64,000 bases of DNA from a virus, in IMG/VR virus record IMGVR_UViG_3300034093_001057, positions 26,121 through 90,120 of that record. The stretch is one strand, 5' to 3'. Positions 6,001-45,448 of this stretch are shown here, piece by piece (positions within the stretch are counted from its first letter, which is position 1; the number at the start of each line of letters is the position of its first letter). Position numbers and translations under genes: made by a program. A model generated the notes under the pieces. That model saw only the letters and a list, made by a program, of their open reading frames with translations, did no database searches and was not told the DNA's origin.

Positions 6001-9000
6001 CTCTGTATTGTAATCTAATATCACCAACGTTAACTGTTTCTAAGTCTTGGTTAAATGGATTGTTACTTAAGTTAACAGGTATTGTATAATATGCTTGATT
6101 ACTAACTTGGTTACTTAATATTAAAACTTCAATTGGTGTATCACTATCCAATTCAGAAACGTCTAATAATTCAATGATCGTAGAATTTGCAGTAATAGTG
6201 TATGAATATTCACTTACGCACTGGCAAGCATTGTTTATGTACACCTGTACACTAGTCCAAGAATCTTGACCTTCTACTTCAGATATAGCAGCAATGTCGC
6301 ATACAAATGTTGTACTAGGATTATCCTTTAGATATGTAAATTGAAATACTTGATACTGCGCACTAGGTGCTACCGCGGTTTGCCAACCTAATTCTCTAGT
6401 ATATTCAGTTCTGTCATCATAATTAAACACATAACCTGTGTTAACTTTTTGAGTTATAGGAGTAGTTCCAGTAACATAATCAAATGTATCAGTGTTTAAC
6501 GAAACATCAAAACTAATATCACCTACATTATCAATAGCACTGTATCTTATAGGAAATCCTAAAATAGGATCATCGGTTCCAGAGCCTATGCCATAAGAAA
6601 ATAATGTACAGCCGGCAAAAGAAGTACCTTGATAAATTGTTGGATCGCTAAAACTTATACCGTTTTCATCAAATACATCAAATAACGGTGCTTGATTTAC
6701 AGTAACTTTTTCTTGTGCTGTGATCCAATTATCGTTACTAAAATAATAAGTATTACCTTGATTATTATATCCTCTAGTAATAACTGCTTGATCATTTTCT
6801 TCACACAAACCATCCTGAGCTTCAGTTAATGTAATAACCGGTACTGATGATGGGGATAATTGAGAAAGTGCAACAACATATATTTTATTGCGTACATTCA
6901 CATCCGTGTCTGCTGCAAATATAATTCTTGCTCCAGAGAATATAGAGTAATTATTAACTGTAGTGTCTGTTGCAATAACGGCTACACTAGTAGCTGAGCC
7001 AACAGATTGTGATACGGCCCAAGACACTGTTAATACAGTGTTATTACCTGCTATGGTTATATTTGTAATTTGTGTGTTGTTAGGTAAAATATCTAAGTAA
7101 TCACTAATATACTGCCCAACTTGGAACGTTCCTACAATATCAGCAGTAGGAATAGTAATAGTAGTTGATGTTCCTACAACAGATGCTATAGATACTGTAT
7201 TTTCTGTATATACTTCTACATCAGGAAAATAATTGTTTAATCCTGCAATTTGCGATAGTGCATCAGTTGTTCTTTGATCAATGAAATCTACTGCATCTTT
7301 GCCACGAGTACCTGAGTTGAATAATCCTAAATTAGGATAAAATTCAATAATAGGTCTTCTTGCTTTATTTTCTGCTTTAGCGAATTCAGTAACTATTGAT
7401 GGATTATTATTATAAATCGCAGTTTGATTAATTACTTGCGAATGAAACCATCTGTTGCTTCTAGACCAAGCATTTTTGTTTATTGCGTTTCTAGCAATAG
7501 TAATATAATCTAAATCTGTTGGTATAAACAAATCACTATCAAAGTTTGATAAATCAAACGGAGTAGTATCAAACGGGACAAAGGTACTTGTAGTAAAATC
7601 TTCAGGTGATACTAATGTTTCAACTGAAATTAGTTCTATTGCCGAACCTACACCTTCTACGTAATATTGTCCGGATAAGTATCTTGACGGGATAACGTCA
7701 CCGTCAAATTCTACTTTTAGTCCATTAGTAAACACAACACCATTTGTTGAAGTGTAATTCTTTTTACCTAAAATATCAGTTTCTACATTTATAGTATTCG
7801 TGGTATTATTTTCAATTATTCTAATAATACCTACTTTGTTTGCAGAAGTACCATCTTGATAGTAAAGCTGATCAAGCGGTGCAGTAATATAAGGTACTAA
7901 AGAAACAACACCTAGCGTATTTCTATAAAATTGTCTGTCAATCCAAGTTGAGCCGTACGTAGCTGTTATTTTTTGTTCAGTTGGTATTAAACCGTCTGGT
8001 ATTAATCTTATAATTGGATTTGTAGGATCTGAGGGATCTACTACATAAGTAATTCTGTAAAAGTTTTCACTAACTGTTGTATAGAACCCTTCTTCATACA
8101 ATCCTTGATTTGCGTTAGCGGTCATTGTTCCGCTATCAGTAGTAAGCGGAAAAGTTGCTCCACCTAATGTATCAGAAATAGTAAATTCCGTAGAACTGTC
8201 TACACTTTTAATATAATAAATTGTACCTGCTGTTACTCCACCAAATACTGGATTGTTAAATGTAATAGTATTGTTAACTACTAGCTGACTAGTATTTCCA
8301 GTTGATAAAGTAAATCTATCAGTTGATGAATTAGAACTTCCTATTGTAACTACTAAAGGAGCTACTAATGCATTATCATTCGTATCAAATGAAGTTTCAT
8401 CGTAGTATGCAGAAATATAACCAATCTCATTAACTACACCTGTGTCATAAAACATAACACGTAAGTTGTTCAATGAAGTAATACTATCAATTGACCCTAA
8501 TGCTGACAACGGAGCACCGTTGACATCTTCAAATGGTAGTGTGCTTATCACATCAACTAAGTTGTTACCGGGGAATATAAACTCATCTTGTGCATCTTTA
8601 CTAGGTACTGTAAAAGTAACTACACCCTGAGTAGCTCCGTTATTACTAACACCATATACATCTCGTACCGGCAAATTAGGTTGAGTAGGACTGAATCCTG
8701 ATACACCGGGTTCTCCTTGTATCCAAAACTGTGATGGCTGATTTACTGTAAATCTATACGAACCACCTCTTAATAAAGTGATAGTAGGATTGGTACTGCC
8801 AGCAGAAGCTCCCAGTTCTCTTATATTATAACCATTAGCTAAATCAGTAACTATATAATCATTGGTTGAATAGACTAGTGCAGAAGACACAGTTACTGCG
8901 GGAGGACCAGTAGGTATCCAGTAATATTGATTGTAATTTACTATTTTGTCAAAATCAGTAAATGAATCCCATGAATAAATCTGACTTTCAAACAGTCTTG

Positions 9001-9322
9001 AATTATTATTAGTAATTCCTCCCTGCAATTCTAGTGCATCTAAAATACCGGGATAGCTAATAAAATCTTGAGCAGTTGACTGATTAGTTTTTGTAAATAC
9101 AACACCGGGATCTAGTTGATAGTCTGTTCTTGTTTTATTTGGTTCTGTTACATAATAATCATTAGCATTAACACCATAACCTACTTTACTACCAATATAT
9201 CCTTGTATCTTTTTTGTGATAGGAGGATTTACTAGCTGGTCTAGTGTTGCTGACAAAAACTCAGTGTTGGTTTTTGTTTGAAAAATTTCGGGAAGAAAAT
9301 TAAGAGTTCTTATTCTTGTCAT
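1..9322 (-). CDS. Giant virion structural protein with FG-GAP/beta-propeller-like repeats (3' end outside window)
   Basis: An open frame starts at ATG 9322-9320 (MTRIRTLNFLPEIFQ) and is still open at base 2, so more than 3,100 residues are visible and the C-terminus lies outside the window. I read the frame directly at 1-720 and at several lines spread over the rest and found no stop; not every codon was checked. The start has the look of the large structural protein that follows gp6 in marine T4-like phages. In the left third, segments such as YYGDVMVVGAPDKDYDG, WGSELAISGDQNWLYISD and SFGSKIVYAGNTYVISEP recur; these are FG-GAP/integrin-type beta-propeller blades. It begins 10 bases after the gp6 stop and is presumably co-transcribed with it. 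Likely role: baseplate-peripheral or fibre-attachment component. The structural role is an inference from family resemblance and position. Confidence 0.75.
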   Translation of the reverse strand, partial: MTRIRTLNFLPEIFQTKTNTEFLSATLDQLVNPPITKKIQGYIGSKVGYGVNANDYYVTEPNKTRTDYQLDPGVVFTKTNQSTAQDFISYPGILDALELQGGITNNNSRLFESQIYSWDSFTDFDKIVNYNQYYWIPTGPPAVTVSSALVYSTNDYIVTDLANGYNIRELGASAGSTNPTITLLRGGSYRFTVNQPSQFWIQGEPGVSGFSPTQPNLPVRDVYGVSNNGATQGVVTFTVPSKDAQDEFIFPGNNLVDVISTLPFEDVNGAPLSALGSIDSITSLNNLRVMFYDTGVVNEIGYISAYYDETSFDTNDNALVAPLVVTIGSSNSSTDRFTLSTGNTSQLVVNNTITFNNPVFGGVTAGTIYYIKSVDSSTEFTISDTLGGATFPLTTDSGTMTANANQGLYEEGFYTTVSENFYRITYVVDPSDPTNPIIRLIPDGLIPTEQKITATYGSTWIDRQFYRNTLGVVSLVPYITAPLDQLYYQDGTSANKVGIIRIIENNTTNTINVETDILGKKNYTSTNGVVFTNGLKVEFDGDVIPSRYLSGQYYVEGVGSAIELISVETLVSPEDFTTSTFVPFDTTPFDLSNFDSDLFIPTDLDYITIARNAINKNAWSRSNRWFHSQVINQTAIYNNNPSIVTEFAKAENKARRPIIEFYPNLGLFNSGTRGKDAVDFIDQRTTDALSQIAGLNNYFPDVEVYTENTVSIASVVGTSTTITIPTADIVGTFQVGQYISDYLDILPNNTQITNITIAGNNTVLTVSWAVSQSVGSATSVAVIATDTTVNNYSIFSGARIIFAADTDVNVRNKIYVVALSQLSPSSVPVITLTEAQDGLCEENDQAVITRGYNNQGNTYYFSNDNWITAQEKVTVNQAPLFDVFDENGISFSDPTIYQGTSFAGCTLFSYGIGSGTDDPILGFPIRYSAIDNVGDISFDVSLNTDTFDYVTGTTPITQKVNTGYVFNYDDRTEYTRELGWQTAVAPSAQYQVFQFTYLKDNPSTTFVCDIAAISEVEGQDSWTSVQVYINNACQCVSEYSYTITANSTIIELLDVSELDSDTPIEVLILSNQVSNQAYYTIPVNLSNNPFNQDLETVNVGDIRLQYRDIYVNAPGMLGQVFGSNNYRDLGNLVPYGTNIIQNSASLVLPGTFLRKTNHNLFDALQFNSNEYTKFKNLLVDTINNAEYVQRYTPSEILDQAIDIITAAKSESQAFFWSDMLPAKSPLRSNTYTFANNLDTSIYPLTTTYNFATANYNGVIVYLSRIISGVTIQKQLIINQDYVISQDAPSLTVTLDLIAGDKITIKEYNQTYGSYVPNTPTKLGLYPAYTPQVVLDTAYTQPTYFIKGHDGSYNKLYGSYNTNLGVLEDFRDQGLLEFETRIYNNLKLSSTVPIQTYEVLPGFFRDTDYTYSEFLQMYSESFLNWVGQNRLNYKTQVFSKVNEFTYNYTNAANKLTNTPIEQGYWRGVYQYFYDTTTPNATPWEMLGFTDQPTWWTERYGPAPYTSDNLILWNDLEQGVIWNDGVPITVETVARPGLTNIIPVDSAGNLVSPFVAIVGNYNPNTFQRDWKVGDDAPVELSYRRSSAYPFDLMRIFALMKPANFFNLGVDVDNYKYNLEFNQYLVNNRSHLVISDVEIYGSGTAKTSYINWIVDYEKQIGINATENITNLLDNLDVRLIYRLAGYSDKNLLKFYVEKGTPNSRNASLLIPDESYSLLLYDNQPFDRIVYSGVVIQITQDGYTVFGNSQTNAYFKVLKPVNNGKYNNIQVEDAQVKVAVDYTANELLIPYGAKFYSEQEVAQFLSSYGAYLTSQGMIFNDVLGGIEVNWDQMISEFLYWSQTGWEVGSILLLNPSAQTLKIDKESSIVQPLTVQNTNFVLNQNLYPIQAKDLSVFRNGTEFSVTALNQGDTVSYGQFNLSNFEHAVVFDNTTLFNDTIYNLITGLRQNRIYVRGTKTAEWNGTITASGFILNQDNIKEWSRAVKYTKGSIVLYKNKYWTALKVIEPSNIFNERDWKETDYDQIQKGLLPNSSTRSYESALYYDTNKANLENDADLLGFSLIGYRPRDYMALVDLTDITQINVYQNLIKNKGTRNAIEAFRGATLPQGGIEYEVYENWAIKSGEFGGLLNKNFVDFKINEQYLTGNPSIVSLTNGVYTPGSQQEVPIYSLFNYARPIDSPNILSTIDPSTPTQVYPDAGYVNFDDVKMSSYFYSGLPVARDKNNEPVLINDFYVRDYAWLANYLGNWDVLAWTSVGRVIAVRSNLNNTATITFAQPHGLVRLQPLSIINYATNVDGYYIVANIVNLNEVIINLPVATEIASTGQGIGLTFQSQRVSNPASINNLPLLDTEFVKNTVWVDESTDGSWAVYRKSLNYQYNNEVTKTNSTTFGSAVAYTDQAGYLISDASAGEVYRYAQDSANNYFIVETLTGGTSFGSKIVYAGNTYVISEPTTASEVHVYVINDSQLSDDFVLYQTIAAPGGVTDWGSELAISGDQNWLYISDIANDKVHVYQKQNILLNAGYFVSGQTYVITDLGTTDFTLIGAIESKVGITFVATGVGTGTGAATQITYKASTIINGVALSLVSSTDKFSKSITTNYYGDVMVVGAPDKDYDGNIANWGSAFAFSRAVQNIEVQFNTIGQTFQLAWTPITVSRTVSATNATGNLITLNSVSGIAVNDPIIFSGTGLLGTGIQGNSVYYIRSIAGSDITIKTSRSSITPEAISTVGSVSNVTATVQTSPLYVSRNGVIVQDNNYGVIGSTFVYSGTLTAGDIITVSDSKFTYAQTFTSNYNNRVGTQFGYSLDTIQSGSEILIGSPFEISDENQEGAVYRFTNAGAKFGLVTGVNECNVTAVRPLLINGYFVNVPIGNATVVANAINSANITNIQAAATVDNKLMIQVINTDLTQVNQKLIITAVDTTTLTELGIEIYTNTQVINCPHEFGPTQFGSVVQFNEYDSVVISAPVATRYEGTTFDFIDDEDFTNDTIFDNNATQFIDTAPNAGAVYMFDYISNYNENLTNIGEFVYAQSVNSKDIVYGFNPLYGTALDFNSNVVMIGTPNFLPDSVDGQVTIYENESGIKDWSIYRNSAPIVNIDSIQNAQLFSAETNNTLIN

Positions 9323-9331
9323 TTTTAATGA

Positions 9332-13246: not shown

Positions 13247-16200
13247 TTATTGTTGGTTACTTATTGCGTCTATTCTTGCTTGATAGTCTCTTTTCTTAGC
13301 AAATAGTGCATCAAGTTTTGCTTGTACTTCATCTTTTTTACGTTTAACTTCGGGATCGCCGGCTGGAGAATTTTGCTCTTCTGTTAATACAGCTATACCC
13401 TCTGTTTGTTTTACCCTTAATATTTGTATATTTACACCCTGTATCTTTTCTCTAAGATCAATTATTTCTCTGTCCACTCGTCTTATATCAGTTAAGCTTT
13501 GTACAGCCTGTCTAGAAACTTCTCCAGTAAAAGTTGGATTAGGTATTCCTGGATCTCCTAACAATGAAACTGTTTTCTGATTGATAGATTCTCTGTTAGT
13601 AGTGTTTACTGCAACTGATAATGTTCTAGATTTTCCTTTGCCGCCAAACAATGATTTTACAGCAGAAATAGCAGACATTGCACCAGCAATAGATCCTATC
13701 GGCAATCCTGAAAGAGATTTTGCTAGTCCACCTGATAATCCACTAGTTATACCTCCTAGTCCACCTGTTAAGCTACTAGTTATACCTCCTAGTCCACCTG
13801 TTAAGCTACTAGTTATACCTCCTAATCCGCCTGTTAAGCTACCGGTTATACCGCCTAGTCCACCTGATAATCCGCTAGTTAAACTGCTCAAGTCACCTGG
13901 TAATTTTGGAAGAGGTAAATTATTCATTGCAGAGCTAAAAGATCCAGTGACTAATGACGATATTTGACCAGATCCGGGAATGCTAGTTAAATTTGGTAAT
14001 GCTTTATCAGTAAAAGATGCAATTGATTTCAATCCACCGGGCATATTGATTATCCCGCTAGCTATATTAGTAGATTCCAAGAGTGAAGTGCCAGTGAATC
14101 CCTGTAATGCTTGAGCACCTAACGAACTAACGGGATTTAATTTACTAATAACATCTGCGCTAGCTTGCCCTACTACATTAGAAAGTGAATCAGAAACTAT
14201 TTGCTGACTACTAACCGAAGTACCTAAATTAGTAGCTACTCCAGCTCTGAAAGAAGGGAATGACAAGTTTATTGCAGAAAATGTAGAGCCCACAATACCG
14301 GTATTACTTGCTATCGGGCCACTAATACTTGGTGATATAGACATCGCATTTACTGCTTGTGAAATTCCGCCGAAGCCTTCTATTGTGTTTGTTGCTTCTG
14401 TCACAGATGCGGTAGCTAAACCTATGTCTCTTAGTACAGAAGAATCAGTAGTATTTTTATTAACTACAGTTCTTACTGTAGTTACTGTGTTACTTAAACC
14501 AGAGTTAACACCTGAAAAAACCACTCCTGCTATTTGACCTGATGTTTCTCTTCCTGTAATTACACCCGTATTAGTTAACGCTGTTTGTGATTGTCGCAGT
14601 GTTGTAACAACCGTGTTAGTTTGAGATTGTATTTGTCTAGTATAGGTACTTAAATTCTCTGCACCAGAGTTACCAGTAAACAATGTACTTGGCATAGCCT
14701 GCGTAATATTAGCCCCTGAACTTACTAATGAATTAATTAGCCTATCTGATCCCGGTTTCAAGACACCAGCACTTGCTAGTTGCGCCGGGCTTTGTGCAAA
14801 TGCTCCTATCGCAGCGATTCTTGACGAACCCACATTTACTACGGATGCTCCTCGTTGTATAGCCGAAGATAGAGGTCCTGAAGCTGCTTGCTGAGCAGTA
14901 GCACCTATTAGTGCAGTAGTAGCTGAACTGTTTAAAGATTTGCTAATGGCTCCGGCAGTAGGCGAGGACAATGCAGTTGCTAGTCTTGCCGGCACAGCAC
15001 CTGTTCTAAGTCCTGCTTGTACTACATTAGATAAAGCTGAACTAGGACCCTGAGGTAGTTGTGAAGAAGAACTTAGATCAACCTTTATGTCTACTCCTTG
15101 ACCTGCATGAGCCCATGGCGCGTGAGCAGGTGCCCTAGATGTTACACTCATCAACTTACCAGGCGCTGCGGTAAATCCCTTTTGATTATCAAAAAGAGTA
15201 TCAGTGTGCGCTATTAAAGGAGTAGGTGCTGCATCTAAAGGAATAATAGGAGATTTACCTGTGTTTAAATTTATTAGTCCTCCGTTTATAAAAGTTAATG
15301 CAGTACTTGAGAATGAAGCTATACCGGTAGCTTGAAGACTCATTGCTCCTAAAACTTTAGTTGTAACCATTCCTAAAGCAGAAGTTATTAAGTTCATACC
15401 TATAGATTGTGTTAATGATTTATCAGTGGCTATATTCATGTTTTCTGCATGAATATTTAAATTTTTAGCCGCGTGTATATTCAAGTCATTGTCAGCGTGT
15501 AAATTTAGATCACCGTGAGTTCTTAAGTTAATGGAATTTGTAGAGTAAATGTCTACTGTACCTTCTTTACCTAATTCTATATACGATTGTCCGTTGGAGT
15601 GTAGAACCATTAATGTTTGTCCGTCATCACTCATAAGTATTTGATGACCTTTTGCTGTTCTTATTCGGACTAACTGATCTCTACCTATAACATCACCGTC
15701 ATCCATTACAATAGAATGTCCGCCGCGTCTAGATATCACTCGTAATTTTTGATCAATGTTTGTTGGGTTATTTTTTATATTTTCAGCAATTGTTTCATCA
15801 TCAAAACCTCCTTCATATATAGGTCTACCGGGTGTGCTTACTCCCCATCCCACTCTACTAGAAGTTTCTCGTTGTGCGCTTGATGATATCGGACCTCTCA
15901 CTGGATCTCTTATTATACCTTGCTGTTCCATGATAGCCGCTGTATAACTATGTACTGGTTTGGTTGCAGTTATAAAACCCGGCTTGTTAGATTCAGCTTG
16001 GTTATTTGTATTCATATTTGTAGTAGGTAGTCTGGGCGCCCCTCCGTAAGTAGAACCCTCGCTATCATTATTGAATGATACATTTTCTTGTTGATCGGTA
16101 AAAGTTGCACCAATAGCAGGAACCATATGTAAAGTTTCTGGGTCCGGTACGCACCCTATGTAAAAACCATAGTTTACATCCCCGTTAACAAAAACACAAA

Positions 16201-20949: not shown

Positions 20950-21969
20950 ATGACTAATAATTTATTTAAAAAAGCAGCAGTTTTTACCGATATTCACTTT
21001 GGAAATAAGAGCAACAGCACAATTCACAATCAAGATTGTTTAGACTTTGTTGAATGGTTCATTCAAAAAGCTAAGCAAGAGGGTTGTGAAACTTGTTTTT
21101 TCTTGGGTGATTGGAATCATCATAGAGCAAGTATCAACATTCAAACGCTACAGTTTGGCTTAAAAGCATTAGAGAAAATGAACGATGCGTTTGAAAAAGT
21201 CTACTTTATTCCAGGCAACCACGATTTATACTACAGAGATCGTAGAGATATTAGCTCAGTAGAATGGGCTAAACATCTACCCAATATTATAATTGTTAAC
21301 GATTGGTTCAAGCATGAAGATGTTGTTATTGCTCCTTGGTTGATCGGAGATGACTTTAAAAAGCTTTCTAAAATGAAGGGCAAGTATTTGTTTGGACATT
21401 TTGAACTACCCAACTTTTTTATGAATGCGGCCGTGCTGATGCCAGATCACGGAGAAGTTAGTGATACTCATGTAAGTGGGTTTGAAAAAGTATTCTCAGG
21501 GCATTTTCACAAGCGACAAGCTAGAAAAAACATTTGGTATATTGGAAATGCATTCCCTCACAACTATGCAGATGCTGGTGATGATGCTAGGGGAATGATG
21601 ATTCTAGAATGGGATCAAGAACCTGAGTTTCATGCTTGGCCTAAACAACCTACATTTAGAGTGTATAAGCTAAGTGAAATCTTAGATAACCCTGATGGTT
21701 TGCTATTATCTCGCTCACATGTTAGAGTACATCTTGATATTGATATTTCATATGAAGAAGCTAACTTTATCAGAGAAACATTGATTCCTCAATATAATTT
21801 AAGAGAAATGACTTTGATCCCAATGAAGGGTGACAGTGTTTCACAAGACAATGCGCAAACTGAACTAAAATTTGAGTCAGTGGATCAAATTATTTTACAA
21901 GAAATCACTAACATTGAAAGTGATTTTTATGATACAAAGACCCTATTAGAGTTATACAAAAATCTATGA
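20950..21969 (+). CDS. gp47: Recombination endonuclease subunit gp47 (Mre11/SbcD family)
   Basis: Protein of 339 residues, the length of T4 gp47. The calcineurin-like phosphoesterase metal motifs are all visible: FTDIHFGN (D14, H16), FFLGDWNHH, PGNHDLYY, then GHFE and FSGHFHKRQ. With gp46 it forms the phage Mre11-Rad50-type complex that resects DNA ends for recombination-dependent replication. The stop overlaps the gp46 ATG by four bases (ATGA), which implies coupled translation. No strong ribosome site precedes the ATG at 20950. Confidence 0.93.
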   Translation: MTNNLFKKAAVFTDIHFGNKSNSTIHNQDCLDFVEWFIQKAKQEGCETCFFLGDWNHHRASINIQTLQFGLKALEKMNDAFEKVYFIPGNHDLYYRDRRDISSVEWAKHLPNIIIVNDWFKHEDVVIAPWLIGDDFKKLSKMKGKYLFGHFELPNFFMNAAVLMPDHGEVSDTHVSGFEKVFSGHFHKRQARKNIWYIGNAFPHNYADAGDDARGMMILEWDQEPEFHAWPKQPTFRVYKLSEILDNPDGLLLSRSHVRVHLDIDISYEEANFIRETLIPQYNLREMTLIPMKGDSVSQDNAQTELKFESVDQIILQEITNIESDFYDTKTLLELYKNL

Positions 21970-24041
21970 TCGTACTAAAGAATTTAACAATTAGAAATTT
22001 TCTTTCTGTTGGAAATGTTACCCAAGCAGTAAACTTTGATAACAAAGACTTAACACTTATTCTGGGCGAAAACTTAGACTTAGGGGGCGATGGTGCCAGA
22101 AATGGTGTTGGTAAAACAACAATGATTCAAGCAGTATCTTACGCAATGTTTGGTTCTCCAATTAATAACATCAGAAAAGATAATTTAATTAACCGTACAA
22201 ATGGAAAGGGTATGTTAGTTACTCTTGACTTTAATGTTAATGGTACTGAGTATAAAATAGAGCGCGGTAGAAAGCCCAATCTTTTGAAATTTTACATAGG
22301 CGGAGAAGCAGTAAAAGACAGTGAAGACTCTGCACAGGGTGAAAATAAAGAAACTCAGGTACAAATAGAAAAAATTATAGGTATGAGCAATGATATGTTT
22401 AAACATATTATTGCTTTGAATACTTATACTGAACCGTTTTTGTCTATGAAAGCAGCAGATCAGCGTGACATTATTGAACAGTTAATGGGTATCACACTGC
22501 TATCCGAAAAAGCTGAAAAGCTAAAAATCTTGGCTAAAGAAACAAAAGATCAAGTACAGTTAGAAGAATTTAAAGTAAAAGCTATTGAAGAAGCCAATAA
22601 GCGTGTACAAGAACAAATAGACAGTTTGATACGCAGACAAAAACTTTGGACAGCTAAGCATGATGAAGATGTAACTAATTTGGCTGTTACATATGATGAT
22701 CTTAGTAAAATCAATATTGAGCAAGAATTACTAACCCATAAAGAATTGGCTTTGTATTTTGAGCGTAAGAAAAAACAAGATGCTTATGAAGCATTACTTG
22801 CTAGACAAACTGCTTGGAAAGAAAAGAACGAAAGTGAAATTGCTGTTCTTTTAAAATCCTACGACCAACTAAGTCATATTGATATTAGTGCTGAACTACA
22901 AGCACACAAAGATTTAACTAGCCATCAAAAGAAAAAAGCAGAACTAGCTCTTTTAAACAAAACAATTGTTTCATTACAAACTACACTAGCCAAAGAAGAA
23001 AAGCTAGTAGACAAACTATTAAAAGAAGTTGAAACTCTTAAAGATCATAAATGCTATGCTTGTGGACAAGATTTACATGATACAAAGCATGATGAAGTTT
23101 TAGGTCAGAAAGAAGCTTTGTTAGCATCAGCACAAGGAGATGTTGCCCAAACCCAAAATGAATTAGAAAAAAATAAAAATTCTATTTTTGAATTGGGTTT
23201 GGAACCTAACACTTATTACGATACTGAAGCAGAAGCGTTTAAGCATAACTCTGAACTAGAAAGTATCTTAAACATGATTCAAGCTAAGCAAAATGAAACT
23301 GATCCATATCAAGAACAAGTTAGTGAACATGTTGTTGAAACTTTAGGTACTATGCCCAAAACTCATTACGATACTGAACAAGAAGCTATTGAGCATAAAA
23401 GTAAAGTTAGCAATTTGCTAGAACAATTAGAAAAGAAAGCTAACGAAATTGACCCTTATATTGATCAAATTGCAGACATGAAAAAAGATGCACTACAAGA
23501 AATCAAATTTGATACGATCAATGAACTTAGTAAAAAAGCTGATCATTTGAAGTTCTTGGTTGAATTGTTAACCAGTAAAGACTCATTTGTTCGTAAAAAG
23601 ATTATTGATCAGAACTTGTCGTATCTTAACAGCAGATTGACACATTATCTTGACAAGATTGGATTGCCTCATCAAGTTGTGTTCAAAAATGACTTGAGTG
23701 TAGAGATTACTGAACTTGGTAGAGAGTTAGATTTTCATAATCTTAGCCGCGGAGAAATGAACAGACTGATATTAGCATTGTCTTGGGCGTTCCGCGATGT
23801 ATGGGAAAACTTGTACTCTCCAATCAATGTATTGTTTATTGACGAATTGTTAGACAACGGTACTGATAGTGTTGGTGTTGAAAACTCATTGTCAGTATTA
23901 AAAGATATGAACAGAACTAGAAATAAATCTATTTGGTTGATTAGTCATAAAGATGATCTAGTCAATCGTGTAACTAGCGTACTGCGAGTAGTTAAAGAAA
24001 ACGGATTTACAACCTTTGCTACTAGCAGTGAAGATGTATGA
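21966..24041 (+). CDS. gp46: Recombination endonuclease subunit gp46 (Rad50/SbcC-type ATPase)
   Basis: Protein of 691 residues with full Rad50 architecture. Walker A is GARNGVGKT at residues 43-51. Two long coiled-coil arms (about 170-340 and 380-530) flank a zinc hook CYACG near residue 360. The ABC signature LSRGEMNRLILALSWAF and Walker B VLFIDELLDN are in the last quarter, followed by an SHKDDL switch histidine. It is longer than T4 gp46 (560), mainly in the coiled coils; there a motif pair of the type TMPKTHYDTEQEA / LEPNTYYDTEAEA is duplicated about 45 residues apart. Partner of gp47. Confidence 0.94.
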   Translation: MIVLKNLTIRNFLSVGNVTQAVNFDNKDLTLILGENLDLGGDGARNGVGKTTMIQAVSYAMFGSPINNIRKDNLINRTNGKGMLVTLDFNVNGTEYKIERGRKPNLLKFYIGGEAVKDSEDSAQGENKETQVQIEKIIGMSNDMFKHIIALNTYTEPFLSMKAADQRDIIEQLMGITLLSEKAEKLKILAKETKDQVQLEEFKVKAIEEANKRVQEQIDSLIRRQKLWTAKHDEDVTNLAVTYDDLSKINIEQELLTHKELALYFERKKKQDAYEALLARQTAWKEKNESEIAVLLKSYDQLSHIDISAELQAHKDLTSHQKKKAELALLNKTIVSLQTTLAKEEKLVDKLLKEVETLKDHKCYACGQDLHDTKHDEVLGQKEALLASAQGDVAQTQNELEKNKNSIFELGLEPNTYYDTEAEAFKHNSELESILNMIQAKQNETDPYQEQVSEHVVETLGTMPKTHYDTEQEAIEHKSKVSNLLEQLEKKANEIDPYIDQIADMKKDALQEIKFDTINELSKKADHLKFLVELLTSKDSFVRKKIIDQNLSYLNSRLTHYLDKIGLPHQVVFKNDLSVEITELGRELDFHNLSRGEMNRLILALSWAFRDVWENLYSPINVLFIDELLDNGTDSVGVENSLSVLKDMNRTRNKSIWLISHKDDLVNRVTSVLRVVKENGFTTFATSSEDV

Positions 24042-24079: not shown

Positions 24080-24613
24080 ATGACATCACCACAAAAAGCA
24101 AAAGGTAATTCTTGGGAAAGAACAGTCGCTATATATCTTAGCGACTTATATCAATCCAGCTTTCATAGAATCCCTAATTCAGGAGCTTATGTTGGTGGAA
24201 AGAATTCTGTAAGAAAAGAATCTCTTGACACGAACCAAGTAAAGTCTTTTAAAGGTGATATAGCTGCTCCAGATTCATGGGTTAACTTCAATTGTGAATG
24301 TAAATCTTATGGAGACTTCCCGTTTCATCAAGTTCTAGCAGGTAGCTGTAAACAACTTGATGGATGGTTAGAACAGTTAATGGCAGTAGCAGATAAAGAC
24401 GATCTAAACATTTTGTTTGTTAAGATCAATCGCAAAGGTAAGTTTATCGCTGTTCAAACTAAGTACACATGGGTTACTGACCAGTTTATGTACTATACAT
24501 CTAAAAATCAGGGTGATTGGATTCTCGTTGACTTTGATCATTTTTTTAATCATAATAAAGACCTTCTTAAAGTATATTCAAACTCTAATTCTCAACCCGA
24601 CACCAAGTCATAA
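24080..24613 (+). CDS. PD-(D/E)XK nuclease, Holliday-junction-resolvase-like
   Basis: Protein of 177 residues. The catalytic pattern of small RecB/Hjc-type nucleases is present: a glutamate in KGNSWERTVAIYLSDLY, a conserved RIPNSGAYVGGKN loop, GDI as the acidic first metal ligand, and NCECKSYGDF as the E-x-K pair. Such genes in tailed phages cut branched DNA during recombination or packaging. It follows gp46 by 38 bases, which supports a role with the recombination complex; T4 uses the unrelated gp49 for this job. The exact substrate is unknown. The last 20 residues are polar and probably disordered. The plus-strand structured RNA starts right after it. Confidence 0.65.
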   Translation: MTSPQKAKGNSWERTVAIYLSDLYQSSFHRIPNSGAYVGGKNSVRKESLDTNQVKSFKGDIAAPDSWVNFNCECKSYGDFPFHQVLAGSCKQLDGWLEQLMAVADKDDLNILFVKINRKGKFIAVQTKYTWVTDQFMYYTSKNQGDWILVDFDHFFNHNKDLLKVYSNSNSQPDTKS

Positions 24614-24923
24614 TTATTAACAATTCGTTTAGTCGGGATAGCCCGACTCTCCTTGAGACTGCTAGCATAGTGCTATTGCCGTTGGATTCTGGAGTAAGCG
24701 TACAATCTAGTAGTAATTGATTGTACGGAACACCGACAGGGCTCTCGTTATGTGTGCGAACCCTGAATGAGTCTATATTTTATTCTATCTTGCGGATATA
24801 GAACATGCGTTGCTGAAGCGATAGTGATTTGTTCACTATTAGTCTTCAACTACAGTCCCAGCAAACCTTACAGAGCAACCGGTGGCGTTAGGTAGCTAAA
24901 CGGCTAACTCTAACGGGGAACAG

Positions 24924-24956
24924 ATGGCAAAGGCGAGAGGCCGCAAGGAATCTTAA
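24924..24956 (+). other. Ten-codon mini-ORF inside the structured RNA
   Basis: ATG at 24924 follows a GGGGAA ribosome-site-like motif by 4 bases and encodes the basic decapeptide MAKARGRKES before TAA. It precedes the 10-bp hairpin at 24961. It could be a leader or tag-like peptide, or chance; the decapeptide does not end like a tmRNA tag. Confidence 0.15.
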
Positions 24957-25079
24957 CCAGTGGTAGTGCTGTTTAGCACTACCATGGCTTCAAGACTGCA
25001 ATGATTTAAACCCCAGATATAATTTAATCAATATGATACCGAAATGAGTATGAGCAAAGCGAATACGAATGAGTGTATC

Positions 25080-25103
25080 AGTTGTCCGTAAGGACAACTT
25101 TTA
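25080..25103 (+). terminator. Intrinsic terminator at the end of the structured RNA
   Basis: AGTTGTCC, loop GTAA, GGACAACT, then TTTTAATAT. The 8-bp stem with a stable tetraloop and T-run works only on the plus strand; the opposite strand lacks a T-run. It defines the 3' end of a plus-strand transcript where no plus-strand protein gene ends nearby. Confidence 0.75.
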
Positions 25104-25110
25104 ATATAGA

Positions 25111-25338
25111 TTAAAAGAATGGAAGTTTAGATTTCTTTGTTGTTTCTAAGTTGGATTCAATTAGTTCACTTACTAATTTTCTTTCCGGTGCAGATAAATT
25201 AAGGGCGTCTGTATATGACAGTCCGCCCCTAGAATACCATGAAAAAGAAAGTGCTTGTCTTTTTATCTCAATACATTCTTTTTCTAGCTGGTCAATCAGG
25301 CTCTTTATATCCTCAGGGGCTAAACTAAGGAGCCTCAT
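25111..25338 (-). CDS. Small conserved protein paired with gp26 (tail/baseplate assembly, unassigned)
   Basis: Protein of 75 residues. It has an N-terminal helix rich in Leu/Glu, then SFSWYSRGGLSYTDALNLS, PERKLVSELIESNLETTKKS and a hydrophobic end LPFF. The WYxRGG...ALxLSxxER pattern is shared with small proteins found beside gp26-type genes in marine T4-like phages and with some tail-assembly chaperones. Its ATG overlaps the gp26 stop by four bases (ATGA), so the two are translated together. A hub-assembly or chaperone role is an inference; no catalytic motif is visible. Confidence 0.65.
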   Translation of the reverse strand: MRLLSLAPEDIKSLIDQLEKECIEIKRQALSFSWYSRGGLSYTDALNLSAPERKLVSELIESNLETTKKSKLPFF

Positions 25339-26168
25339 CCGAAAAAATCGGATACATTCAACGTAAATGGTTGTTGATATTGGTGATTACATTCACCGCA
25401 TTGTAATGCCAAAGGTTTTAAGTTAGTTTTTTCTTTTAAGTTAGCGTTATGCTCTTTGATTGCATTAAAAGTATCTCTAGAACAGTTTCTTAAAAAGTCT
25501 TCAATAAACTCTTTATTATCTACTCTATGCCCATCAGGAGTTTCAACATATTCTATAGTTTTAGCTATAAGTTTAATTGATAACTCTGTAATAGTTTTTA
25601 ACCCTTCTTGAGATTTTTGTTCTTTTATTGAAGCATCTTTTTCTTGTTCAACGGACAATAGCAACCTTTGTAAATCAAATTGTGCTAAATTAGCTTGATT
25701 GATGTCATTATAATCCAAAGGATTAAACTTTAACTTTAGTTCAAGAACTTCTAATTTTTCTTCATAGTCAGGTGACGTTAGCCCACTTAGTACAAAATTT
25801 AGATCAATTGCATAAGTTGCTTTATTCTGGCAAGCAGGGCACTGTGAATCTAGTTCTAAACTATTTCCAGTAGAAGCTACTTTGATTCCAATCAATATAG
25901 TGTCTAAATCAATATTGTTTATTTTCCATGGATCTTTGATATCAGGTATACAACTTTTTATAAGATCAACTATTACATTACCGTTAAACAATGCATCGGG
26001 TGTTTTTGTAGTAATTTCATCAATCGCTGTCATAGGATAAACAGGTATTTCTTCTGTTTCTGGATAATTTAAAACATCAGGAGTATAATATTTACCCTTG
26101 GATGGTAGCTTGATATAGATAGCTGGTCTTCTAAAGTATTGCTTTAGTGGGTTATTAGATGTACTCAT
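25335..26168 (-). CDS. gp26: Baseplate hub protein gp26-like (T4 baseplate family)
   Basis: Protein of 277 residues. The N-terminus has the family pattern RRPAIYIKLPSKGKYY, VYPMTAIDEITTKTPDALFN and DLIKSCIPDI seen in T4 gp26/gp28-type baseplate hub proteins. Two CxxC pairs, CPAC near residue 110 and CGEC near residue 260, could form a zinc site that brings both ends together; the pairs are visible, the zinc is inferred. It shares a divergent intergenic region with the tape measure gene. T4 gp26 is 208 residues; this one has a longer helical C-terminal half. Confidence 0.8.
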   Translation of the reverse strand: MSTSNNPLKQYFRRPAIYIKLPSKGKYYTPDVLNYPETEEIPVYPMTAIDEITTKTPDALFNGNVIVDLIKSCIPDIKDPWKINNIDLDTILIGIKVASTGNSLELDSQCPACQNKATYAIDLNFVLSGLTSPDYEEKLEVLELKLKFNPLDYNDINQANLAQFDLQRLLLSVEQEKDASIKEQKSQEGLKTITELSIKLIAKTIEYVETPDGHRVDNKEFIEDFLRNCSRDTFNAIKEHNANLKEKTNLKPLALQCGECNHQYQQPFTLNVSDFFG

Positions 26169-39867: not shown

Positions 39868-42800
39868 ATGGCATTAAAACCATTTAATTCAGTAGCCGGG
39901 TTTTCAGTAGGCGAAATACCCGCACTTAATATAATATTAGCAAACGGTGATATCACTGCGTCTAATGCTACTCTTACTGGCAATTTGGTTATATCAAATG
40001 CTAACGCTAGTTGGGGCGTACTAACAAATAATCTTTATTACGCCAATGGTGTACCGTGGGATTTACAAGAAGCAGCAGGCTCAAATAATCAAATTCAGTT
40101 TAACAATAATAACAATTTTAGTGCTAGTGCTAACCTAACATTTGACCCAGCTACTAACTTACTTACTGTAGCAGGAAACTTAAACGCTACCGGAGTGACT
40201 GCAAGCACATTAACATCAAATGTTGCAGTAGGTACTGCACCAATAACAGTTACATCCACAACTAAAGTAACAAACTTAAACGCTGACTTGCTTGATGGTT
40301 ATGATTCTTCTACAAGTAATACTGCTAATACAGTAGCAGTGCGTAACGCTGATGGTAATTTAACTGCAAATTATTTTATAGGTAACGGATCACAGCTAAC
40401 TGGCATTGATGCTACTAGCATTCAAAATGGAAATAGTAACGTAAAAGTAGCAGCTAACGGTAATGTTTCTATTAGCGTTACGGGAACTTCTAACGTAGTT
40501 ATTGTTACTGATACCGGTATGAACGTAGCAGGCTACATAAATTCAACCGGCAATGTTACTGTCAACTTAGAATTTCAGGCTAATACTGCAAACTTTGATG
40601 GCAATGTTACAATGGATAGTTGGTTATCGGTTGCAAACACAGCCAACGTTGGTAATTTACGTACTGATAATCTATTGTATGCAAACGGCGTGCCATGGGA
40701 CATGCAAGAAGCTGCAGGCAGCAACAATGAAATTCAATTCAATATCAATGATAATTTTGCAGCAAGTGCAAATCTAACTTATAATGATACTACACAACAG
40801 TTTACTGTTTTGGGTAATAGTCAGTTTAATAATGCAAATTTAGGCAACATAGCAACTGCTAATTTTGCTAACATTGCAAGTAATGTAACTACAAGTAATG
40901 CAACAGTTAACTTAGAACTTGCAGGTAATACAGCAAACTTTACAGGTAACATAGCTGCTTTAAACACAAATGCAGGCAATTTATTAACTGCAAACTTTGC
41001 AAACTTTGCAAGTAATGTAACTACAAGTAATATAACGGTTAACTTAGAACTTGCTGGTAATACAGCAAACTTCAGTGGTAATGTTATTGCCGCAAACTTT
41101 ACGGGTGCTTTAGCTAACGGCAATAGTAACGTAAAAGTATACAGCAACTCAAACGTAGAAATCAGTACAAACGGTGTCGCAAACGTTGCAACATTCTCTG
41201 GTAATACATTATTAGTTGTAGGTAATATACAATCAACATCAGGCAACATGCTTGCTAATGGTAACATAAGCGCAAATGGTTTCTTGAATGGCGGAAATGC
41301 AAATGTAACCGGTGAAGCAAAACTAGGTAGTGTATTGACATCAAATATCACTTCAAACGGTAGTTTGACAATCACTGCATCTGGCACAAATGAAAATATC
41401 ATTCTTGTACCTGCGGGCACTGGTACAATCAATGTTAGTTTAAAGAACATCACACAAGTTGCTGCTCCAGTCAATCCAAATGACGCAGCAACTAAAGAAT
41501 ATGTTGATAGCACAGCACAAGGTTTAACAATACACACAGCAGTTCGTACAACAAGCGTAACTAACCTGAACGCTACTTACGCAAACGGTGGCAGCGTATT
41601 GACTACAATCGCAATTACCGGCGGCACAACAATACAGTTTAGTGCTGCTCACGGTTTGAGTGTAGATGACGAACTTGCATGGGATAACAGTTTCAATGGT
41701 ATAATCAACAACGATTCATACTTTGTATTCAGCATACCAGCACCCGACACTATCACAGTGAAAGCAGGATATTTCGGTGCTGAAGTCACAACATTGACTA
41801 ACGGCACTGGCTTATCACAAACTGCAAGAGCAAACACTGGTGTTGGTGCAACATTAACAAACGCTGGCGCGAATGCGGCAATCAGTATTGATAGCATCGC
41901 ACTAGCATCAACAAATAGAGTTCTTGTTCAAGGCCAAACAAACCAGTCTGAAAACGGCGTCTATACTGTAACAACTGTGGGCGATGGTTCAACAGCGTGG
42001 GTACTAACAAGAGCAACAGCCGAAGATACATATAGCCCAGTAGACACATCGGCACTAGGTTATGGAGACTACTTCTTTGTTCAACAAGGTACTAGTTATG
42101 CCGGTAGTTCTTATGTACTAACTACACCGGTTAGTGAGATACTATTTGGTTACACAAATATATTATTCAGTCAGTTTAGCGCAGCAGGTAGTTTCACTGC
42201 GGGTAACGGTATTGCTATTACTGGTACAATTATCAGTGCAAACGTTGACGGAGTAACAACAGACATTGTTGGCGGCAATATTGTTGTTAAATCAAGTGCA
42301 AACTTGACTACACCAAATTTGGGCGATGCAACATTTAGCAGTTTGTCATGGAATAATCAAAGCAACGGTAATGTCACAGCTAATAACTTGAGTATTGGTA
42401 ACATTGCAAATATTACTCTTGATTTAACAGTAGGCGGTAATGTTCAGGTCAGTGGTAACATTGACAGTAATGCTAACATCTATAGCAATAATTCAGATGT
42501 AAGTAACTTCTTGACTGTCGGCGGAAACACAACGTCAAACAACATTACATCCAACAATTGGTTGAACACAGCAAATGCAAATGTAAGTGCTAACCTCATT
42601 ACAAGTAATGCAACAGTTAACTTAGAACTTGCAGGTAATACAGCAAACTTTACAGGTAACATAGCTGCTTTAAACACAAATGCAGGCAATTTATTAACTG
42701 CAAACTTTGCAAACTTTGCAAGTAATGTTGTAACAAGTAACTTAACTGTTAACTTAGCTTTATCTGGTAATACAGCTAATTTTACTGGAAATATTATAGT

Positions 42801-43383
42801 CGCTAACGCGAACTTAGGTAACTTAGCAACTGCGAACTTCTTTACCGGTGTATTGATAAATGGCACAAGTAATGTAACGGTTGATAATAACAGTAATGTT
42901 AATTTAACCGCTAATGGTAACACTACACTTGTAGTAACTAGCACCGGTGCTAATATTACTGGATATGCAAACATCACGGGTAGTGTGACTGCAAATAACG
43001 TTACTATAACAAATAACTTATCTGCTAGCATTGCTAATATCGCTACTAGAATAGATTTAGGTAATACTGATATAGGATGGGATACTGTAACAACAACATC
43101 AATATCAGCCAATCAGACTATTTCTACTTACGCAGTTTCAGGAATTACTGGAATAGAATTCTTAGTAAAAGGGGTAGATGCTACCGGAGGTAAATATAGT
43201 GTAGCTACTGTTCAAGCAGTTTCAAACGGAACAAGTGTTGATTATGCAACATTTGCTACTGTAAACTTAGGCGGATTAACCGGTGTATTAGCTGTCAACA
43301 TTGTAGGTAGTAACGTAGCACTTCAAGTTTCACCTAGTAGTGCTAATTCAACGATATGGACAACACAATATAGGACTATCTAA
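39868..43383 (+). CDS. Beaded fibre protein 2 with internal duplication
   Basis: Protein of 1171 residues. It starts PFNSVAGFSVGEIPAL like its neighbours and carries two QFNNNNNFSASANLTF-type beads plus many short NANFTGN/NLELAGN repeats. Residues about 530-830 form an unlike central domain beginning NDAATKEYVD, a common phage-fibre motif, and including NQSENGVYTV; codon use there is more varied than in the flanking repeats, which hints at an acquired module. A 129-bp stretch on each side of that domain is identical. The C-terminus (ITGIEFLVKGVDATGGKYSV) matches the fibre 1 end. Role: trimeric tail fibre or baseplate appendage contacting the host. Confidence 0.75.
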   Translation: MALKPFNSVAGFSVGEIPALNIILANGDITASNATLTGNLVISNANASWGVLTNNLYYANGVPWDLQEAAGSNNQIQFNNNNNFSASANLTFDPATNLLTVAGNLNATGVTASTLTSNVAVGTAPITVTSTTKVTNLNADLLDGYDSSTSNTANTVAVRNADGNLTANYFIGNGSQLTGIDATSIQNGNSNVKVAANGNVSISVTGTSNVVIVTDTGMNVAGYINSTGNVTVNLEFQANTANFDGNVTMDSWLSVANTANVGNLRTDNLLYANGVPWDMQEAAGSNNEIQFNINDNFAASANLTYNDTTQQFTVLGNSQFNNANLGNIATANFANIASNVTTSNATVNLELAGNTANFTGNIAALNTNAGNLLTANFANFASNVTTSNITVNLELAGNTANFSGNVIAANFTGALANGNSNVKVYSNSNVEISTNGVANVATFSGNTLLVVGNIQSTSGNMLANGNISANGFLNGGNANVTGEAKLGSVLTSNITSNGSLTITASGTNENIILVPAGTGTINVSLKNITQVAAPVNPNDAATKEYVDSTAQGLTIHTAVRTTSVTNLNATYANGGSVLTTIAITGGTTIQFSAAHGLSVDDELAWDNSFNGIINNDSYFVFSIPAPDTITVKAGYFGAEVTTLTNGTGLSQTARANTGVGATLTNAGANAAISIDSIALASTNRVLVQGQTNQSENGVYTVTTVGDGSTAWVLTRATAEDTYSPVDTSALGYGDYFFVQQGTSYAGSSYVLTTPVSEILFGYTNILFSQFSAAGSFTAGNGIAITGTIISANVDGVTTDIVGGNIVVKSSANLTTPNLGDATFSSLSWNNQSNGNVTANNLSIGNIANITLDLTVGGNVQVSGNIDSNANIYSNNSDVSNFLTVGGNTTSNNITSNNWLNTANANVSANLITSNATVNLELAGNTANFTGNIAALNTNAGNLLTANFANFASNVVTSNLTVNLALSGNTANFTGNIIVANANLGNLATANFFTGVLINGTSNVTVDNNSNVNLTANGNTTLVVTSTGANITGYANITGSVTANNVTITNNLSASIANIATRIDLGNTDIGWDTVTTTSISANQTISTYAVSGITGIEFLVKGVDATGGKYSVATVQAVSNGTSVDYATFATVNLGGLTGVLAVNIVGSNVALQVSPSSANSTIWTTQYRTI
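40890..41018 (+). repeat. 129-bp perfect direct repeat, copy 1
   Basis: Identical to 42600-42728. The copies are 1710 bp apart, exactly 570 codons, so recombination between them would remove the central domain of fibre protein 2 in frame. Confidence 0.95.
42600..42728 (+). repeat. 129-bp perfect direct repeat, copy 2
   Basis: Second copy of the repeat at 40890-41018; flanking bases differ on both sides. A shorter, diverged third relative lies at about 41020-41090. Confidence 0.95.
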
Positions 43384-43450: not shown

Positions 43451-45448
43451 ATGGCAGAAACAAAATTAAATTCTATACAAGGCTTCTCGGTAGGACCTAA
43501 TAGCGTAGCTGTAATAGATATAAATTCTAATGTAGCGGCAGCTGCTATTACTGCCAATGGGAATGTTACCTTTACTGGATCAAATGTATCTTTAGGTAAT
43601 GTTTCTAATCTTCATATATTAGGCGGTAATGCTAATCAAGTTTTATCTACAAATGGATCAGGTAACTTATCGTGGGTTGATCCAACCGCCGGAGGTGGAA
43701 ATGCTATTGTTACGATCAGTACTACTCCTCCCGGATCTCCGGTTAATGGGCTACTTTGGTGGGATAGCGAGGATGGTAATAGCTACATAAGATATGATGA
43801 CGGTAATTCAACGCAGTGGGTTTTATTTGCTAGTTTAACTGCTACAATAGGCGCTACTGGTATAACAGGTGCTACTGGTATAACAGGTGCTACTGGTGCC
43901 TCGGGTGCTACAGGTATTACTGGTGCTACTGGATCAGGCGCAACTGGTGCTACTGGCTTAACAGGTGAAGTAGGTGCCTCGGGTGCTACAGGCCCAACTG
44001 GTGCCACTGGATCAGGCGCAACCGGTGCTACTGGCTTAACAGGTGAAGTAGGTGCCTCGGGTGCTACAGGCCCAACTGGTGCTACTGGATCAGGCGCAAC
44101 TGGTGCTACCGGATTAATAGGTGCTACCGGCATTCAAGGAACTCCAGGAGGTGCTACCGGGGCTACCGGCGTAGGTGCCACTGGTGCTACCGGTGTTCAA
44201 GGAGAAACAGGTGCCACTGGAACAGGCGCTACTGGTGCTACTGGCTTAACAGGTGAAGTAGGTGCCTCGGGTGCTACCGGCGTAGGTGCCACTGGTGCTA
44301 CCGGTGCTACCGGCATAGGTGCCACTGGTGCTACCGGTGTTCAAGGAGAAACAGGTGCCACCGGATCAGGCGCTACTGGTGCTACTGGCTTAACAGGTGA
44401 AGTAGGTGCCTCGGGTGCTACAGGTATTACTGGTGCTACCGGTGTGGGTGCCACTGGTGCTACCGGATTAATAGGTGCTACCGGCATTCAAGGAACTCCG
44501 GGAGGTGCTACCGGTGCAACTGGACTCAATGGAGTAGACGGAGCTACCGGCGCTAGCGGACCTGCAGGTAGCCCCGGCGGGGCTACAGGTGCTACCGGTG
44601 CAACTGGACTCAATGGAGTAGACGGAGCTACCGGCGCTACTGGATTATCCGGATCCAGGACGTATAATGTAACAAATAGTGGAGCTAGTGCATTTACAAT
44701 TGATGGTTCAAATAACCCTGCACTGTATTTGTTACGAGGATTTACATATGTATTTTCGGTAAATGCAAGCGGTCATCCATTTTGGATAAAAACTACACCA
44801 GTTACTGGTACAGGCAATGCTTATTCTAACGGAGTAACAAATAACGGCACTGCTGTCGGAACTATAACGTTTGCAGTTCCTTATGATGCACCTAGCACTT
44901 TATATTATATATGTCAATTTCACTCAGCAATGCAGGGTGTAATTAACATTAGTGACGTAGGACCAACCGGAGCAACAGGTGCTACTGGACCGATAGCGGG
45001 TAGCAACACTCAAATAGTGTTCAATGATGCCAGCACTGCAAATGGTAGTGCTAATTTAACTTTCAACAAAACAACTTCAGTATTAACGGTTACAGGCAAT
45101 ATTAGCGTTGCAAATATAACATCTTCTTCTTATTCTATTGCATCAGTGGGAACAGGAATTTCAGCGGCAGGCACTGTACAATCAAATGCAACCGGGCTTA
45201 CAACACAATTTAATGTAGTATCAACTGTAGCTTCAAGTGAAGGAGTTAGATTACCAAACGCTATTGCCGGCATGAGAATAACAATCTTAAATACGAGTGC
45301 TAATTCGTTATTAGTTTATCCAGAATCCGGCGGTATAATAAATTCACAATCAGCTAATGCTGCGTACTCTCAACCAGCCGGCGCAAGACTAGATTTTATA
45401 TCTACTACTACTACTCAATGGTATACTTTGAATGCTACATATAGTTGA
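43451..45448 (+). CDS. Collagen-like fibre protein with cupredoxin-like domain
   Basis: Protein of 665 residues. The N-terminus [15 protein letters not shown] is shared with the two preceding fibres. Residues about 133-400 are collagen-like Gly-X-Y repeats, mostly GAT, GIT and GAS. Residues about 400-505 form a beta domain ([38 protein letters not shown]) with H442, C488, H491 and M494 in the order of a type-1 copper site; this is the cupredoxin-like module found in some marine phage fibres. One [20 protein letters not shown] bead and a C-terminal beta domain follow. It would be a trimeric rod with head domains for host binding. Copper binding is an inference. Confidence 0.75.
43850..44645 (+). 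repeat. Collagen-like Gly-X-Y coding repeats
   Basis: About 265 consecutive Gly-X-Y triplets' worth of sequence (roughly 88 triplets of residues) built from GGTGCTACTGG-type 9-bp words. Longer blocks of 90-100 bp, for example at 43960-44060, recur nearly unchanged, so the array is prone to expansion and contraction. Confidence 0.85.

Follow-up and report, generated by a model that had tools for sequence, protein, structure and literature searches.

The question raised by this locus is what occupies a gap between two converging genes of a phage. The window analysed here is the whole stretch of 64,000 nucleotides, taken from a viral record of 90,120 bases. An earlier note, made from the sequence alone, had described 497 bp free of protein genes in an otherwise packed genome, and both points are confirmed: the gap (24614-25110) extends from the stop of a nuclease gene (24613) to the end of a minus-strand ORF (25111), and no other stretch of at least 200 bp in the window lacks an ORF of at least 65 aa, positions 1-9331 excepted. 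The latter region, with more than 9 kb devoid of a closed ORF of at least 90 aa, is probably a single giant minus-strand gene that is open at the window edge and has its stop outside the window. The GC content of the gap is indeed raised (42.5% vs. 36.7% for the window). The features of the locus are as follows:

21966..24041, plus strand: neighbouring gp46 / SbcC-like gene (phrog_77, 356.7 bits)
24080..24613, plus strand: gene for a PDDEXK_15 / RusA-like Holliday-junction resolvase of 177 aa (PF24608, 88.8 bits; phrog_244)
24624..25103, ends within about 10 nt, plus strand: type-A jumbo-phage large structured RNA (nhmmer and covariance-model homologues in more than 200 loci, covariation)
25080..25103, plus strand: intrinsic terminator, an 8-bp stem (25080-25099) and a U tract; the stem covaries, with 3 significant pairs
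25111-25338, minus strand: neighbouring convergent small ORF (orf75), 75 aa, of no family
25111..26168, minus strand: orf75 together with a gp26-like baseplate hub gene (gp26: PF12322, phrog_150), by synteny

The nuclease gene lies directly 5' of the RNA and outside it, its stop about 10 nt before the RNA start, and the RNA itself is about 470-480 nt long. The annotated relatives of gp26 belong to the jumbo phages Phosso, Atu_ph07, and PA5oct (32-34% identity). Further along the window, 43451-45448 encodes a protein of 665 aa that has a long, collagen-like GATGATG repeat and adjoins a repetitive protein of 1171 aa (39868-43383).

A coding function of the gap is rejected, as the ORFs of homologues are not longer than those in shuffled sequence; in 77 homologues, the median length of the longest plus-strand ORF starting with ATG is 32 aa, vs. 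36 aa after shuffling. A protein gene in the corresponding slot of relatives, which had been named beforehand as contrary evidence, is not found. Homologues were collected by three scans of viral contigs, using flanking proteins and a 24-mer, and by one scan with the pattern of a hairpin termed P10, which is present in at least 119 viral stretches. Among the matches listed, 231 loci were gathered, and a profile search finds the RNA in 224 of them; 197 RNA loci among the matches listed are full length and 128 are distinct, with 78 sequences retained at less than 90% identity (mean pairwise identity 63%). RNA-bearing contigs reach 524, 352, 349, and 333 kb, and many of the homologue contigs are fragments.

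The earlier note had proposed a search between gp46/nuclease and gp26 in related phages, and it is in that slot that the homologues were found. The usual order, nuclease/gp46 (plus), RNA (plus), and orf75/gp26 (minus), is seen in nearly every locus with flanks present and is complete in 120+32 loci. In two loci gp26 has no adjoining RNA: in L070 the RNA is elsewhere in the contig, still behind gp46 and the nuclease, and L075 ends inside gp26. In G014, gp26 is elsewhere and the RNA is still behind the nuclease. The type-A RNA is conserved as a locus in a clade of jumbo T4-like aquatic phages. No homologue was found by blastn against named phages, where 27-nt matches fall in a variable hairpin (P8a), and the covariance model detected no type-A RNA in Atu_ph07, Phosso, or PA5oct; an unfiltered covariance-model search of the Phosso and Paride slots gave nothing convincing. 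The exact P10 pattern has 0 matches in 84,980 bacterial species genomes, and a literature search retrieved no publication describing the type-A RNA. Weak matches to its core at 40931 and 42641 of the window are chance hits in coding repeats of a tail-like protein.

Covariation in these homologues carries the case for a structured RNA. The core alignment comprises 36 sequences over about 200 bp and 49 pairs; 97.5% of the pair cells are standard, and two-sided changes occur in 41/49 pairs (308 two-sided cells), with the alignments being plain MAFFT output that is not fitted to structure and the structure being derived from the same alignments. This level of pairing was reached by 0/500 shuffles and fell to 30-39% when partners were slid, and the outcome for the 5' domain is like that for the core. 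A phylogenetic test was performed with our own script modelled on R-scape (G-test with average-product correction, the null being obtained by reshuffling substitutions along the tree). Among 101,926 column pairs, 25 are significant at E<0.05: 22 standard base pairs, two that lie diagonally next to such a pair, and 24814/24874, which is 73% paired. Thus, 24624-25103 on the plus strand encodes a structured RNA kept by evolution, and we regard its structure as certain. The elements are:

24631-24637 x 24642-24648, plus strand: P1, hairpin of the 5' domain; 91% of cells paired, two-sided changes in 5/5 counted pairs
24649-24652 (CUCC) x 24691-24694 (GGAG), plus GA/UC, plus strand: P2; 100% paired, common to the type-B RNAs described below
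24661-24679, plus strand: P3, variable hairpin enclosed by P2; covaries
24699-24707 x 24719-24727, plus strand: P4, variable hairpin; covaries, one pair significant in the phylogenetic null
24731-24735 x 24880-24884, plus strand: P5, long-range closing helix; 96% paired, 3 pairs with two-sided changes
24737-24741 x 24761-24765, plus strand: P6; 100% paired, covarying
24745-24747 x 24757-24759, plus strand: P6a; 99% paired, covarying
24767-24769 x 24804-24806 and 24772-24779 x 24795-24802, plus strand: P7, whose loop enters PK1; two-sided changes in 11/11 pairs
24785-24790 (P7 loop) x 24922-24927, plus strand: pseudoknot PK1; 100% paired in alignment A2, two-sided changes in 5/6 pairs, 2 pairs significant in the phylogenetic null
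24809-24813 (GUUGC) x 24875-24879 (GCAAC), plus strand: P8; 100% paired
24815-24847, plus strand: P8a, variable hairpin in P8, from the window sequence
24856-24859 x 24916-24919, plus strand: pseudoknot PK2; 97.8% paired, two-sided changes in 4/4 pairs
24887-24896 x 24904-24914, plus strand: P9, hairpin; two-sided changes in 10/10 pairs
24961..24984, plus strand: P10, hairpin UGGUAGUGCU/AGCACUACCA, then UGG; nearly invariant in sequence

The four hairpins listed in the earlier note (24631, 24699, 24886, and 24961) are all present. Its expectation that they would covary is borne out at the first three, as well as at the terminator, and fails at 24961, which is kept almost letter for letter. The P10 stem UGGUAGUGCU/AGCACUACCA is almost fixed in sequence while the other helices vary freely, and this invariance suggests sequence-specific recognition.

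As to the strand, the gap folds well below shuffled sequence in both orientations (plus strand z = -3.8, minus strand z = -5.7), so folding energy alone shows neither strand nor function. The paired cells contain 58 G-U/U-G and only 8 C-A/A-C combinations, the latter being the wobbles of a minus-strand RNA. The predicted terminator (25080-25103) is present, with its stem at 25080-25099; it is the sole terminator-like site within 24300-25400 and is found on the plus strand only. Together, the wobble asymmetry and the terminator assign the RNA to the plus strand. A promoter scan for the RNA was no better than chance. An origin or recombination site made of palindromes, acting at the level of DNA, would account for a nearly invariant inverted repeat such as P10 beside a Holliday-junction-resolvase-like gene; because the wobble asymmetry (58 vs. 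8), the nested long-range and pseudoknotted covariation, and the plus-strand terminator require an RNA, we consider such a site highly improbable.

The fold also bears on whether the RNA could be an intron. The earlier note had given CAGTC at 24853 two possible distant partners and taken these for a tertiary or switching core. Neither pairing is conserved: the word at 24657 pairs in 68% of cells and that at 24994 in 53%, and the same strand pairs instead with GGGA at 24916-24919 (94%, covarying). What stands of that proposal is a pseudoknotted core, tied by PK1 and PK2 in place of the GACTG/CAGTC pairing. An intron-like ribozyme of group I, possibly permuted, would have drawn on the superficial R/S-like words at 24657, 24853, and 24994. 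These failed the pairing test for the P7 R/S interaction (GACTG/CAGTC), as CAGUCCC pairs with GGGGA instead, which led to rejection of the permuted form; moreover, there is no Rfam intron match and the RNA is not inside a gene, so the chance that it is such an intron is close to negligible.

Invariant single-stranded strands in the core (ACUACA, UUUACAG, GCGAAC, and AAUACCGA) raise the question of catalysis. Covariation links column 24884 (A/G) to both 24731 (U/C) and 24867 (U/C), and the three may form a base triple or a switch. The main rival to the reading favoured below is a ribozyme in which these strands and the two pseudoknots form an active site, for example for phage RNA processing. 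Highly conserved unpaired core nucleotides, the double pseudoknot, and the possible triple 24731/24867/24884 are all consistent with this, but no Rfam ribozyme matches even at E <= 10, no cleavage-site signature is known, and the core model finds no counterpart in the type-B RNAs of that slot, which leaves a ribozyme unlikely.

How does this RNA compare to known families? With Rfam 15, the window has no match at gathering score and none that is credible at E <= 10, the one weak match, to Dicty class I, being a chance hit to the reverse-strand terminator hairpin; ten divergent homologue loci likewise have no match at gathering score. Covariance models of RNase P, ribozymes, introns, and other Rfam families do not match the window, nor is there any tRNA or tmRNA (ARAGORN, Rfam; 0 tRNAs in 64 kb), and the GOLLD, ROOL, and OLE models match neither the window nor the ten divergent loci. 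GOLLD and ROOL are phage-borne, large, and pseudoknotted and have no known protein partner or function (PMC12286853), and the window RNA resembles them in these respects. However, it is about 480 nt long whereas they measure 659 to more than 800 nt, it has no tRNA island in the window whereas many GOLLD and ROOL loci are near phage tRNA islands, and it is linked to gp46, the nuclease, and gp26. OLE, a large ornate RNA of unknown mechanism (PMC12286853), belongs to extremophile Gram-positive bacteria, in contrast to the phage-borne type-A RNA, which has no Rfam match. We judge the type-A RNA to be a new family of large ornate phage RNA, a kind that is only loosely defined.

Loci with a related nuclease and no type-A match contain, in the same slot, another structured RNA of about 400 nt, here called type B. 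It has its own covarying helices, as assessed without a tree-based null. The type-B 5' domain matches the covariance model of the type-A 5' domain in the slot at up to 56 bits (E 2e-10, the E-values of our own models being rough), and nhmmer matches to the type-A profile are found at the type-B 3' end and also at the 5' end. With the core model of type A, no significant match is obtained in the type-B locus L278; the P8 strands (GUUG.../...CAACCG) are alike between the two cores by eye only. Types A and B look modular, with a common 5' domain and terminator and an exchangeable core.

A different subset of type-B RNAs has a 5' part that matches the Rfam family Polynucleobacter-1 (RF01718) at 106-116 bits (loci L103, L105, L277, L335, L397, and L403). 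RF01718 has a length of 141 nt and is listed for Burkholderiales and fresh water, with the motif-table marks "y, y, ?" (Weinberg et al., 2010; PMC2864571), which likely denote a cis-regulatory element. The model finds nothing in the window at E <= 10 (its threshold is 37 bits), and the exact Polynucleobacter-1 pattern has 0 matches in the 84,980 bacterial species genomes. In related phages, Polynucleobacter-1 shares the slot of the window RNA, immediately after the same nuclease gene, but it lacks the type-A core. In all ten loci checked, the type-B core words come about 240 nt after it, and from this arrangement of sequences we conclude that in some type-B members Polynucleobacter-1 forms the 5' third of a larger phage RNA. 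The earlier suggestion of an undescribed RNA class therefore holds in that no Rfam family matches, and is qualified in that a sister branch contains the orphan Polynucleobacter-1 as its 5' part; its broader reading, a large structured RNA of T4-like aquatic phages, is upheld by homologues in the slot and covarying helices. Locus L397 also contains, at 14865-14940, the freshwater-2 cis-regulatory RNA of Rfam (RF02980, 56 bits), about 11 kb from its Polynucleobacter-1/type-B RNA.

The mode of action is more speculative. A single strong RNA match is seen in most of the other jumbo records tested, and one contig of 103 kb (G009) contains two divergent copies separated by about 38 kb, one near gp26 and the other with neither nuclease nor gp26 recognised nearby; PF24608 has no match in this fragment. 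The 5'-domain matches of G009 lie several hundred bases upstream of both cores, which suggests that the RNA is split or carries an insertion. The coordinates for this contig are L199 6945-7013 and 6087-6271 (-) and L244 2113-2180 (-). Two copies, one of them apparently far from the usual genes, favour a trans-acting RNA over a cis element, G009 as the main case being a fragment with divergent copies, and the RNA of G014, which stays behind the nuclease despite gp26 being elsewhere, was also counted for trans action.

An alternative possibility is an element in the 3' UTR or at the operon end that acts in cis on the gp46-nuclease mRNA, as a stabiliser or regulator. Such an element would fit the constant position after gp46/nuclease: in the window the RNA begins about 10 nt past the nuclease stop, and most relatives have it in the same place. 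It is nevertheless far too complex for a stabiliser, and G009, where PF24608 has no match, contains two copies, of which one is apparently remote from the usual neighbours; we give this possibility slightly less weight than the ribozyme. The RNA might instead belong to an RNP with the PDDEXK nuclease or another phage protein, as a guide, decoy, or anti-defence RNA. Exactly one PF24608 gene is present in 12/13 RNA- or slot-bearing records tested, and it adjoins the RNA in most loci, but members of the nuclease family are also present in cultured phages that have no detectable RNA, no nuclease match accompanies the RNA in G009, and no variable guide-like segment was noticed, all of which makes this proposal improbable, a shade more so than the cis element.

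On balance, we favour a free-standing, trans-acting RNA of about 480 nt that would serve as a structural RNA or RNP scaffold like GOLLD and ROOL, the functional half of this reading being inferred. Transcription would run to the right and end at the RNA's own terminator, starting either at a promoter close to where the nuclease gene ends or as read-through of the gp46-nuclease operon. The RNA folds into three parts: a 5' domain (P1, P2/P3, and P4), a compact core in which P5 closes P6, P7, and P8, tied by PK1 and PK2 and followed by P9, and a 3' part of P10 and the terminator. During infection it may act in an RNA-only assembly or as an RNP scaffold, where P10 and the core strands, being invariant, would provide docking sites, and it would not regulate a neighbouring gene in cis.

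In Sinorhizobium phage Phosso (L232), about 1 kb without an annotated gene (8230-9243) lies between ribonuclease HI and a Holliday-junction resolvase; it folds far below shuffles (z -7.7), has no Rfam match, and is perhaps another large RNA, here of a cultured jumbo phage. In Pseudomonas phage Paride (L425), about 1.5 kb between gp26 and the resolvase (2479-3991) has only tiny annotated ORFs (30-50 aa), and the same slot of PA5oct (L234) folds at z -2.4; the RNA models do not match the Paride/PA5oct slot.

Large structured RNAs of bacteria and phages are rare, and each known class (GOLLD, ROOL, and OLE) has opened a line of research. The type-A RNA is widespread in aquatic jumbo phages, has very strong covariation, and is absent from Rfam, and the long-orphan Polynucleobacter-1 motif can now be placed as a fragment of a larger phage RNA. 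It is conceivable, if somewhat doubtful, that the type-A RNA founds a functional class of its own: a natural ribozyme or RNA machine of jumbo phages, kept by a clade of giant T4-like phages, whose double-pseudoknot core is exchangeable on a common 5' domain. In either case, the alignment and a secondary structure with two pseudoknots are ready for the design of mutants.
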